A stretch of DNA of 64,000 nucleotides from Catellatospora sichuanensis (GTDB lineage Bacteria > Actinomycetota > Actinomycetes > Mycobacteriales > Micromonosporaceae), in NCBI RefSeq assembly GCF_007483665.1, contig NZ_ML660184.1:288932-352931 (forward strand), given 5' to 3'. The notes under the pieces were generated by a model. The model was not told the origin of the DNA. It saw only the letters and a program-made list of their open reading frames with translations, and made no database searches. Below, in pieces: positions 6,671-26,200 of the stretch. The position numbers and the translations under genes were made by a program. Position 1 is the first letter of the stretch. Every line of letters starts with the position of its first letter.

Positions 6671-6740
6671 CGTTGATCATGAACTTATGGCACGGCTCGA
6701 CGGCGTGTCCCCGCCCTAACTTCATGATCGATTCGCGGAT
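6671..6740. repeat. Family A palindromic element, copy A1
   Basis: Arms at 6675-6687 and 6717-6729 (GATCATGAACTTA and TAACTTCATGATC, one mismatch) flank a loop containing TGGCACGGCTCGACGGCGTG. The same arms and loop recur at 12.7, 15.3, 25.1 and 26.1 kb. It lies 3' of the SAM hydrolase gene and upstream of the SCO6745-like gene. Confidence 0.85.
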
Positions 6741-6816
6741 GTCGGCGCCCAGGCGCCTGGTGGCGGTGGTCCTGCCGACCAGCTCGTCGAGGTAGCCTGG
6801 CCCTTGAATCTAGTCA

Positions 6817-6845
6817 TTGACAAGTTACGGGTGTCGTGAAAATCT
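6817..6845 (+). promoter_or_regulatory. Candidate promoter of the SCO6745-like gene
   Basis: A consensus -35 TTGACA at 6817-6822 is followed 17 bases later by AAATCT at 6840-6845, a weak -10. A short dyad GCATCAAGATGC at 6851-6862 lies between it and the ribosome binding site GAGGGAGG. Inferred from consensus only. Confidence 0.4.
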
Positions 6846-6897
6846 TGTCAGCATCAAGATGCATTCTGAGTGTCACGATGTTGAGGGAGGAACGACG

Positions 6898-7773
6898 ATG
6901 TCCGAGACGGTGCCCCCGGCGCTGGTGCGTCAGATGTGGCAGGTGCTGGAGCCGGTGCACGCGGCGATCTACTTCGCGCCGCAGGCCAACGAGGAGGCCG
7001 CTGCGCTGGGCTACGACACCGAAGCGCGCTGGCCGAGCTACTTCGCGTGGCGGTCGGCACCGCTCGGCGCGGCCGGTCCTGAACTGGTGGCCGCGACCTA
7101 CTACAGCTTCAGCCCTGCCCTGGTCCGCACCCATGTCCCCGCGATCTGGGAGACCGCCACGCCGGACAAGGTGCTGACCTCACGACTCCGGGCCGTGGAC
7201 CGCACCTTGCGCGCGCTGCTTCCCGACTTCGTCGGCAGCCCGGAACTGGCCGAGGCGGCCGCGCTCGCCCGCCGCGCCGCCGGGGCGGCCGTCACCGCGG
7301 GTCGCCCGCTGGCGGCAGCCAACGCCGACCTGCCCTGGCCGGACGAGTCGCACCTGGTGCTCTGGCACGCCGCCTCCGTGCTGCGCGAGCACCGTGGCGA
7401 TGGGCACCTCGCGGCACTGCTCGCCGCCGGGCTGGACCCGTGCGAGGCCCTGGTGTCGTTCGCGGCGGTCGGCGCGGCCCCGGTCGAGGTCTTCGCCAGC
7501 CGGGGCTGGACGGCCGACGAATGGCAGGCCGCGCAGGAACGCCTGGCCGTCCGTGGCTGGCTCGACGCGCAAGGACTCGCCACCGACGCGGGACGGGCCG
7601 GGCGGGACGAGATCGAGCGGATCACCGACGAACTGGCCGCCGGTCCGTGGCGGGCCCTGGGGCAGGCCGGCGCGGGCCGGCTCGCGCAGCTGGTCGGGCC
7701 GGCTGCGGTCACCCTGGCCCGTTCGGGGATCTTCCCCCGGCAGAGCACGCTGGGCCTTGGCGCACGGCGCTGA
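6898..7773 (+). CDS. SCO6745-like protein of unknown function
   Basis: A 291-residue soluble protein beginning MSETVPPALVRQMWQVLEPV, followed by HAAIYFAP, the pattern I associate with the actinobacterial SCO6745 (SalK-like) family, whose biochemical role is not established. The ATG at 6898 is preceded by GAGGGAGG at a good distance, which is why the open frame upstream to 6817 is not used. It is rich in Ala and Arg and shows no membrane segment or catalytic motif that I can recognise. Its C-terminal half (about residues 195-260) has the feel of a winged helix (TADEWQAAQERLAVRGWL), so nucleic-acid binding is possible. It converges on clgR. Confidence 0.7.
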   Translation: MSETVPPALVRQMWQVLEPVHAAIYFAPQANEEAAALGYDTEARWPSYFAWRSAPLGAAGPELVAATYYSFSPALVRTHVPAIWETATPDKVLTSRLRAVDRTLRALLPDFVGSPELAEAAALARRAAGAAVTAGRPLAAANADLPWPDESHLVLWHAASVLREHRGDGHLAALLAAGLDPCEALVSFAAVGAAPVEVFASRGWTADEWQAAQERLAVRGWLDAQGLATDAGRAGRDEIERITDELAAGPWRALGQAGAGRLAQLVGPAAVTLARSGIFPRQSTLGLGARR

Positions 7774-7812
7774 ACATCAGGAAGAAGCACGCAGTCCGGG
7801 AACGACGAAGTG

Positions 7813-7853
7813 GCGGGCGGCCGAGCAGGCCAGTGGCTACTGCTGCCGCCCGC
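7813..7853. terminator. Bidirectional hairpin between convergent genes
   Basis: GCGGGCGGC then AGCAG on the left pair with CTGCT and GCCGCCCGC on the right: 14 pairs with a two-base bulge and an 11-base loop. It lies between the converging SCO6745-like gene and clgR. No T-tract on either side, as is usual in this GC range. Confidence 0.5.
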
Positions 7854-7937
7854 TTACGGGCACACCTTCCCACACGGACACGCCGCGGGCGGCTCGCCGC
7901 AGGCAAAATGCGGCCGGTGAAGCGGGATCCGGCGTCC

Positions 7938-8381
7938 TCAGACGCCGACGACCTCGCGCCCGCGCGCGTTGCCGGGATTGCCCGGACGCATGTTGCGGGT
8001 CGTCCGCAGCGTGGTGCGCAGCGGATTGTCCCGGCGGACCGTGACCGAGACCTGGCCGTCGGTGGCCACCTCGGTCCGCGGCCGGTGCCCGATCTCAGCC
8101 ACCTGCTGGTCCCCGCGCGGCAGCGGCGTGAGCACGCCTTCGACCTGCTCGGCGACGGCCATGGTGTCGCTGACCTCGCGCAGGACCTCGGACAGGCGCG
8201 CACCCAGCGCGTCGCAGATCGAGGTCAGCAGCTCGCTGGACGCCTCCTTCTGCCCACGTTCGATCTCGGACAGGTAGCCGAGACTCACGTTGGCAGCGGT
8301 GGAGACCTCACGCAGGGTGCGGTGCTGTCCCTGCCGGCGGGCACGGAGGGCATCACCGATCACTCGACGCAGAAGCACCAT
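7938..8381 (-). CDS. clgR: ClgR, XRE-family transcriptional activator of Clp protease genes
   Basis: Helix-turn-helix regulator; in Streptomyces, Corynebacterium and Mycobacterium ClgR activates clp protease and related stress genes and is itself a Clp substrate. Residues about 5-70 form an HTH_3 domain with the ClgR-like [20 protein letters not shown] and [11 protein letters not shown]. The rest is a short hydrophilic region. The ATG at 8381 is preferred because CCAGGGGGT lies about seven bases upstream; a longer frame starts at 8411. Genomic setting (downstream of pgsA and cinA, same strand) is the conserved actinobacterial arrangement. The C-terminal end is not the Val-Ala-Ala degradation tag seen in some homologues. 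Confidence 0.88.
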
Positions 8382-8496
8382 GTTCGCACCCCCTGGACTG
8401 TTCCCCGTCACGACGCTGTCGGCCGATATGCCGTCAGCCGCCGGTTGTCACCGACGGCTGAGAAGAACCGTACTCTCTTCATGCCAGTTCGACACC

Positions 8497-24962: not shown

Positions 24963-25000
24963 CCCCACCCGCCACCTGCCCGCCCCACAGCACCGCGCGG

Positions 25001-25077
25001 CACGGGCCGGGCACGGGCCGGGCACGGGCCGGGCACGGGCCGGGCACGGGCCGGGCACGGGCCGGGCACGGGCCGGT
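25001..25077. repeat. Tandem array, seven copies of an 11-bp unit
   Basis: CACGGGCCGGG repeats without error from 25001, 25012, 25023, 25034, 25045, 25056 and 25067. The unit is not a multiple of three, so reading through it gives an 11-codon superrepeat (Pro/Gly/Ala/Arg), but no coding evidence exists. Likely to vary in copy number between strains. Confidence 0.92.
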
Positions 25078-25136
25078 TGATCATGAACTTATGGCACGGC
25101 TCGACGGCGTGTCCTGCCCACAACTTCATGATCAAC
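25076..25136. repeat. Family A palindromic element, copy A4
   Basis: GTTGATCATGAACTT at 25076-25090 and AACTTCATGATCAAC at 25122-25136 (one mismatch) flank the core TGGCACGGCTCGACGGCGTG, identical to A1. It starts at the last base of the 11-bp tandem array. Confidence 0.88.
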
Positions 25137-25171
25137 GCACGACCGACAACCGGCACGGCGCAGCACGGCTC

Positions 25172-25260
25172 AAGATCGTGACGATCTTGCGGGAACTGTT
25201 GGGGATTCGCCCGGAATGGGCGCGTCGTACCCACAGTTCGCGCAAGATCGTCGCGATCTT
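25172..25260. repeat. Family D palindromic element, copy D2
   Basis: Arms 25172-25199 and 25233-25260 pair over 28 bases with two mismatches; each arm itself contains GATCGTGACGATC or GATCGTCGCGATC, a nested dyad. The loop reversed resembles that of the copy at 61.3 kb. Lies 3' of dapB. Confidence 0.85.
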
Positions 25261-25298
25261 GGCGGGCGTAGGGGGCGCGGGGGGGGGCGCGGGGCGGG

Positions 25299-26054
25299 TT
25301 AGAGGAGGGGGCTTAGGCCGAGGGTTAGGCCGGGGCGTTTGACGACCTCGCGGATGGCGAGGAGGACGCCGGGCATGAAGGAGGCTCGGTCGAAGGAGTC
25401 GTGGCGGATGGTCAGGGTCTCGCCGGTGGTGCCGAAGAGGACCTCCTGGTGGGCGACCAGGCCGGCGGCGCGCACGCTGTGGATGCGTACGCCCGCGACC
25501 TCGGCTCCGCGCGCGCCGGGCATCTCGTCCGTGGTCGCGTCGGGCATCGCGGGTTTGCCGGCCGCCTTGCGGGACTGCTCGATGAGGCGGGCGGTGTGCA
25601 GGGCGGTGCCGCTGGGCGCGTCGACCTTCTTCGGGTGGTGCTGCTCGATGATCTCCACCGAGTCGAAGTAGCGGGCCGCCCGCTCGGCGAACTCCATCAT
25701 CAGCACCGCGCCGATGCCGAAGTTGGGTGCGATCACCACGCCGACCTCGGGCTTCGCTGCGAGCCAGCCCTTGACCTGCTCCAGCCGCGCGTCGGTGAAG
25801 CCACTGGTGCCGACGACCACGTTGATCCCCTGGTCGATGCACCAGTGCAGGTTGTCCATCACCACGTCGGGCGCGGTGAAGTCCACCACGACCTGGGCGG
25901 CGGCGTCGGACGCGTTGAACAGCCAGTCGCCCTGGTCGATCATCGCCACGAGGTCCAGGTCCTCGGCCCGGTCGACGGCGCGACACACCTCGACACCCAT
26001 CCGGCCGCGAGCACCCAGCACGCCGACCCGCAGCGGCTCCACTTCATCAGTCAC
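25299..26054 (-). CDS. dapB: 4-hydroxy-tetrahydrodipicolinate reductase
   Basis: NAD(P)H-dependent reductase of the lysine/diaminopimelate pathway. N-terminal Rossmann motif [14 protein letters not shown], the VVDFTAPD segment, GTSGFT, the catalytic [18 protein letters not shown], and the end [15 protein letters not shown] are all family-specific. Length 251 aa normal. GTG start at 26054. In other actinobacteria dapB lies near thyX and dapA; here about 6.4 kb of accessory genes separates them. Repeats D2 and A5 flank the gene. Confidence 0.95.
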
Positions 26055-26141
26055 GCGCCCAACCTAGCGGATGCGACGGCCCCCGGCGCGCCGACCACGC
26101 GCATTCGGGAACACGCCGCCCGACCTGCGCCACCCACCACT

Positions 26142-26200
26142 TTGATCATGAAGTTGTGCCCGCGACACACCGCCGAACCGTGCCATAAGTTCATGATCAA
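26142..26200. repeat. Family A palindromic element, copy A5 (inverted)
   Basis: TTGATCATGAAGTT at 26142-26155 and AAGTTCATGATCAA at 26187-26200 (one mismatch), with the inverted core GACACACCGCCGAACCGTGC. It lies between the M16 protease stop and the dapB start, two co-directional genes. Confidence 0.85.

Follow-up and report, generated by a model that had tools for sequence, protein, structure and literature searches.

Bidirectional intrinsic terminators are hairpins in the gaps between convergent genes, and the integron attC site, or '59-base element', is an imperfect palindrome behind genes, with the boxes RYYYAAC/GTTRRRY and a size similar to that of the element described here. This element, which we call family A, is an interrupted palindrome with five copies in a window of 64,000 nucleotides (nt) from Catellatospora sichuanensis (contig NZ_ML660184.1, positions 288,932 to 352,931), the window being the whole stretch of DNA analysed. 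Repetitive extragenic palindromic (REP) sequences can form inverted pairs termed REPINs; according to the accessible part of their description, what limits the interior of a REPIN is chiefly its length and its ability to form a hairpin, and REPINs are tied to REP-associated tyrosine transposases, or RAYTs (PMC3116915). CGTC-tagged REPs combine stems of 8-9 bp with loops of 4-5 nt and carry a CGTC tag, and they lack a dedicated transposase; the portion of the source available to us reports them from five phyla, Actinobacteria not among them (PMC3733652).

Family A is a real and sharply defined element. Its length is near-constant in two genera, its tip motif is found in other families of bacteria, and it is located at gene ends. 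In Catellatospora its sites persist with few insertions or deletions, and in Micromonospora its interior is replaced as a block at orthologous places. Based on these observations, we propose, tentatively and with somewhat less than even confidence, that family A is a DNA hairpin unit that is recognised by its arms, length and tip, and that a putative factor copies or converts from one gene-end address to another.

The 59-bp unit in the window and the genome

A sequence-only reading of the window had described five dispersed palindromes of 60-79 bp with common arms and loop. All five exist, as a single ungapped element with a mean column identity of 92% (rough consensus TTGATCATGAACTTATGGCACGGYTCGACGGCGTGTC-N7-CTAACTTCATGATCAA); every copy has a conserved unit of 59 bp, and the larger sizes must be dropped. 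The arms of about 10 to 25 bp vary in appearance only: neighbouring bases prolong the palindrome, at the extreme through the flanks of copy 3 to 15338-15416, and mismatches intervene, such as C-C at positions 12/48. In the following list the strand of each copy was set by the orientation of its loop. Open reading frames (ORFs) came from our own GC-frame caller and no annotation was used.

6673-6731, + strand: copy 1; 5' end 19 nt past the sense ORF 5874-6653 (+); the next ORF, 6898 (+), is co-directional
12749-12807, - strand: copy 2; sense, 5' end 17 nt past the stop of ORF 12825-15131 (-)
15348-15406, + strand: copy 3; runs antisense to ORF 15438-17147 (-), 31 nt from its stop
25077-25135, + strand: copy 4; in a convergent gap, with ORF 24483-24962 (+) 114 nt upstream and ORF 25299-26054 (-) on the other side
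26142-26200, - strand: copy 5; sense, 5' end 19 nt past the stop of ORF 26220-27521 (-)

A GGGCAC-GGGCC-type tandem repeat at about 25007-25076 precedes copy 4. Short tandem repeats of this type and of the GGGCT and GCGCT types lie directly 5' of some copies (also at loci L128 and L134) and lengthen the distance to the stop codon.

The arm pattern TGATCATGAANTT matched the window 12 times with up to 2 mismatches, and 10 of these matches are the arms of the five copies; shuffled sequences gave a mean of 0.29 and at most 2. The 19-nt loop core, with up to 3 mismatches, matched 5 times (shuffled mean 0.38, largest 3). As both counts lie far above the shuffles, chance is excluded for the five copies. 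When folded in isolation, each strand of each of the five copies gave a hairpin stabler than its shuffles (z -2.46 to -11.71).

Genome-wide searches extended the family. BLAST of the C. sichuanensis genome with a single copy gave 53 matches, with 40 of 123 candidates scored and some matches being the same palindrome read in reverse. A covariance model built from 35 copies gave 124 matches over both strands, with at least 68 distinct places at 48.9 bits or more; this number is a lower bound, from 150 of 17378 candidates scored. Sixty-four of the copies are 59 nt, two are 60 nt and two are 58 nt. A weight-matrix scan of the extracted loci found 70 distinct copies, 67 of them scoring above 40. 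Over these 67, mean column conservation is 0.97 at positions 1-11, 0.89 at 12-24, 0.94 at 25-37, 0.66 at 38-45 and 0.95 at 46-57. The loop conservation noted in the first reading is real, and genome-wide it is not that of terminators with free loops. The C-C mismatch at positions 12/48 is present in 53/65 copies. It is hardly credible that family A is a chance similarity of ordinary terminator hairpins: the gene-end position would fit, but the shuffle controls, at least 68 copies at 48 bits or more and the constant span speak against it. A degenerate sub-form, in which the 5' arm and loop are kept and the 3' half is altered (..CACCC..CCGTGATCA), occurs at L113, L114 and L115 of this genome (labelled G000) and at L133 of G007.

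The family was matched in all 10 other Catellatospora genomes examined, more weakly in G001, whose best copies are 60 nt. In samples of related genomes, there were matches at E<=1e-5 in 70/200 genomes and 15/44 genera of the family, and at E<=1e-6 in 51/298 genomes and 13/77 genera of the order. A single match of span 55 with the same kind of arms, possibly a contaminant, was seen in Sphaerimonospora mesophila (L227), whose genus lies outside the family. The expectation that the palindrome is dispersed, REP-like and maintained, and characteristic of this lineage, is supported. It had also been thought uncharacterised, and we found no matching description in Rfam (searched over the window) or in the open-access literature, where arm sequences and palindromic repeats in Micromonospora, Salinispora or Catellatospora were looked for and subscription papers were outside the scope.

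Length, tip and pairing

Family A has paired, inverted, conserved ends at a fixed spacing and can form a hairpin. We searched with the arms only and allowed any span from 42 to 70 nt, where 55 corresponds to 59 nt between the outer ends. The span was 55 nt in 47/48 matches of the C. sichuanensis genome (one 56), in 26 of the 27 matches listed for G208 (one 56; 35 found) and, in two Micromonospora genomes, in 27/28 matches of G180 (one 56) and 24/27 of G200 (two 56, one 52). Among the matches listed for named genomes (84 in 80 loci), 75 had a span of 55, four of 54 and two of 56; the three others, one each of 52, 66 and 67, come from metagenome-assembled genomes of other groups and are taken as chance.

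At the apex of the hairpin, the tip CGGCGTGTC starts at position 29. It is exact in 43/67 copies of the C. sichuanensis genome and has at most one mismatch in 66/67. In G180 the tip motif has at most one mismatch at position 29 or 30 in 28/28 copies, and the seven bases preceding it differ in every one of the 27 standard-length copies. Micromonospora elements with these arms and this length have at least four interiors, which we name classes I (CGGCGTGTCG), II (GGAGATCRA), III (CGGACA) and IV (AGCG-centred). Nineteen copies from three further families of the order have other arms (TTGATCATGGACTTTGC.., TTGATCATGCACTTTCGGGACG.. and one TCGAGTGTGAACTGG..), and all 19 carry CGGCGTGTC exactly at position 29, although these copies were chosen by a model favouring this loop and are no random draw. 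Six of them are 59 nt and 13 are 60 nt.

The two arms change together in Micromonospora. In 66 class I copies we counted 60 compensatory cells, compared with a shuffled mean of 30.1 and a maximum of 41 in 500 shuffles. RNA helices commonly retain more G·U than A·C. The Micromonospora stems have no wobble bias (G·T 45, A·C 46), which speaks for pairing as DNA or on both strands. Palindrome correction could also produce such compensatory changes.

These data bear on another explanation, that family A is bound, as duplex or cruciform, by a nucleoid protein, a topoisomerase or a segregation factor, the arms serving as half-sites 51 bp apart. The near-invariant arms and spacing would suit such a site, as would the mostly intergenic, often convergent location and the indifference to orientation in Micromonospora. 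However, compensatory changes between the arms are not expected of independent half-sites unless they arise from palindrome correction, other families retain the tip motif of the interior, and the copy number is modest. We regard the binding site as rather unlikely.

Gene ends, site persistence and change in place

Gene context was counted in C. sichuanensis for 67 of the 70 copies, with four called inside ORFs omitted (one without a left ORF). The flanking-ORF contexts of the resulting 63 copies are ++ 26, +- 23, -- 10 and -+ 4, a sense bias of 26:10 (p=0.011). The copy begins a median of 18 nt past the sense stop (<=30 nt in 39/49), and in convergent gaps the sense stop is the nearer one in 18/23. 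Inverted repeats with arms of at least 10, in gaps of 40-600 nt, are found in 103/137 convergent, 165/439 co-directional and 26/173 divergent gaps; the shuffled counts are 4, 14 and 8. These results would suit a gene-end RNA element, that is, a transcribed hairpin that acts as a terminator or shields the 3' ends of mRNAs, with a loop that binds a protein or nuclease. However, the class I copies of G180 and G200 have the contexts ++ 5, -- 6, +- 19 and -+ 2 (4 skipped), and the sense stop is nearer in 8/19. Orientation is thus not tied to genes in Micromonospora. Named class I copies of mixed genera gave ++ 10, -- 6, +- 16 and -+ 2, and in other families of the order 5/17 contexts, from short loci, are divergent. 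TTT occurs within the first 12 nt downstream in just 2/67 C. sichuanensis copies, so that the T-run of an intrinsic terminator is lacking. Together with the near-equal G·T and A·C counts above, these points make the RNA element unlikely. A site on the sense-strand RNA fits Catellatospora and not Micromonospora, and we lowered it as a general rule.

At gathering cut-offs, Rfam 15 gave two matches over the window, none on family A. A Guanidine-III riboswitch lies at 12292-12348 (+; 38.1 bits, cut-off 36) and an Actino-pnp cis-regulatory RNA at 30140-30197 (-; 69.1 bits). Six loci searched at E<=1 gave three matches far under cut-off, all to microRNA-precursor models and all in L239. By eye, the G180 copies showed no sign split by replichore, the origin not having been located.

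The sites of family A persist in Catellatospora. Over about 400 kb common to three species, family A was present at syntenic sites in 27/28 testable comparisons, in a search that demands the arms and a length within 2 and would score a grossly altered copy as absent; five further comparisons were not usable (no flank or synteny). Identity between the paired elements is 92.2%, and gap events number 0.07 per 55 nt; their flanks are about 84% identical with 3.3-4.0 gap events per 40 nt. No interior was replaced in the 27 pairs. Some site-specific variants are common to Catellatospora species, which indicates vertical descent. Read by eye, the site at 26142 is occupied in 8/11 genomes of the genus (3 of the 8 variant or decayed) and empty in G004, G008 and G009. 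Target duplication was rejected, as there was no clean junction. Recent movement is not seen in Catellatospora, although in Micromonospora the interior changes in place.

This change was followed in 16 Micromonospora ortholog pairs in which both flanks are at least 90% identical over 350 nt. The interior was kept in 8 pairs and exchanged for another in 6; one pair has it inverted, and in one its length differs. These pairs are not mutually independent (those with replacement, 6 in number, represent 5 sites, and kept pairs share sites too), and the set omits 6 loci with more than one copy as well as the Catellatospora loci. It supersedes an earlier rough regular-expression tally of 75 pairs, including four from the same locus (30 same, 13 flipped, 32 changed). 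Interior identity is 0.81-0.90 in kept pairs and 0.16-0.35, in direct orientation, in replaced pairs, which keep their arms and length. This bimodal split argues for block change rather than drift. In direct orientation the single inverted pair still reaches a similarity of 0.68. At L219 and L375 (flanks 93.9/95.5% identical), CACCCCGTTGATCATGA and CATGATCAAC are common to both loci, which differ in between: one has a class I middle, the other a class II middle. The clear replaced cases are explicable either by conversion from another copy or by repeated insertions at a single spot.

Our model is as follows. Two inverted ends (TTGATCATGA..) enclose an interior that retains its length and its folding and has CGGCGTGTCG at its apex. 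A putative factor, other than a RAYT detectable by the Pfam or NCBIfam models, may read the folded unit through its basal arms, length and tip. The unit may then be copied or converted among a restricted number of addresses, most of them behind genes; there it would be tolerated or would act as a barrier between transcription units. We also considered an address-keeping hairpin system without a RAYT, in which a dedicated enzyme reading the folded hairpin and its CGGCGTGTCG tip would exchange the interior as a block among few loop classes, or flip it, and arms, 59-nt length and address would stay, the whole being kept in several actinobacterial families; this we think unlikely.

Several results weigh against the model of a copied or converted unit. 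No enzyme was found for family A. The stems of the C. sichuanensis genome have no covariation excess (11 compensatory, shuffled mean 9.0), and their A·C exceeds G·T (46 and 14) as column composition predicts. The near-constant length of Catellatospora and Micromonospora is not family-wide: the best model matches in G020, G018 and G013, from three other genera, are 58, 56 and 73 nt (56-73 nt). The class I tip, with at most one mismatch, is present in only 13/27 G200 copies. The junctions examined held no clean empty site or target duplication, and the scarcity of indels could stem from host selection rather than copying. Last, the near flanks of L179/L418 and L387/L423 align poorly, and separate insertions are possible there. 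If the model is nonetheless true, palindromic repeats can hold length and tip in the long term without the transposase regarded as their driving force, and interiors that can be swapped in place are a natural experiment in hairpin DNA copying or correction. The unit would also be a testable candidate for how antibiotic-producing actinobacteria separate adjoining transcription units.

Other palindrome families and known systems

Other palindrome families share the region, and in the same stretch of about 400 kb their syntenic presence is 8/14 for B, 2/5 for C, 2/17 for D, 1/7 for E, 5/12 for F, 20/30 for G and 4/9 for I. Family E (GCAGTTTCGGGGAAA..TTTCCCCGAAACTGC) lies at window positions 12653-12712, 59390-59457 and 50339-50390; its span is equal in 7 of the 8 matches from three chunks (the remaining one seems spurious) and its loops differ. 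Family F (GACGATCTTGCG..CGCAAGATCGTC), at 25180-25252, 61286-61372 and 20503-20569, has a span of 69 in 8/9 matches, and 8/9 lie between convergent ORFs. Family G (GAAGGGCACCTTC..GAAGGTGCCCTTC), at 12210-12253, 50202-50249 and 51095-51138, has a span of 38 in 27/28. Families D (GACTTGCC..GGCAAGTC; 13/13 at 59) and B (TGGCCTATC..GATAGGCCA; 10/10 at 49) again have fixed lengths on unrelated arms; their sites include G000:C4:61707-61781, 89520-89578 and 211934-211994, and a B-like copy is at window 53537-53601. At some sites one palindrome family occupies the place that another has in a related species.

The search for a RAYT, which the sequence-only reading had called for, did not yield a partner. 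The RAYT model NF047646 was over cut-off in 0/11 genomes of the genus, with sub-threshold matches in three, and the E. coli control was over cut-off. PF01797 was over cut-off in 6/11, and the five genomes without it carry many copies. Nine Y1 loci with 1.5-kb flanks held a lone arm octamer in just two cases and no copy pair, so that no transposase there is flanked by copies. A RAYT partner was rejected on these grounds. No obvious transposase was seen by eye in three translated intervals between close inverted pairs, which might have held an autonomous parent (no library search was made).

Family A might still be an ordinary REPIN whose RAYT has diverged too far for our models to detect. The paired inverted ends, fixed length and the compensatory changes of Micromonospora would agree with this, and so would CGSG directly 5' of the C. 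sichuanensis copies (-4 C 55/67, -3 G 48/67, -1 G 64/67), as in the part of the REPIN description available to us (PMC3116915). Set against these are the RAYT searches and the strong persistence of sites, and we judge this explanation quite improbable.

How, then, does family A compare with known systems? Like bidirectional intrinsic terminators, it forms hairpins in convergent gaps, but it has conserved arms, tip and length, and no T-run in 65/67 copies. Like attC, it is an imperfect palindrome of similar size behind genes; attC identity was rejected because the terminal boxes do not fit, although no search for an integrase or cassette array was made. With CGTC-tagged REPs, as far as the accessible text describes them, it shares a palindromic structure, the lack of a dedicated transposase and a position mostly behind genes, and it differs in its 59-bp unit (PMC3733652). 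The REPIN, in the portion of its description that we used, is alike in its inverted conserved ends, its interior limited mainly by length and hairpin capacity, its extragenic location and its several classes per genome (PMC3116915); the compensatory changes described for REPINs are seen in Micromonospora and not in the C. sichuanensis genome. As no RAYT was over cut-off in the 11 genomes, family A is built like a REPIN, yet we do not class it as one. Its sites persist for long in Catellatospora, and two of its traits are unusual for the REPIN-like kind: several families have the tip motif, and at orthologous sites interiors are replaced at constant length.

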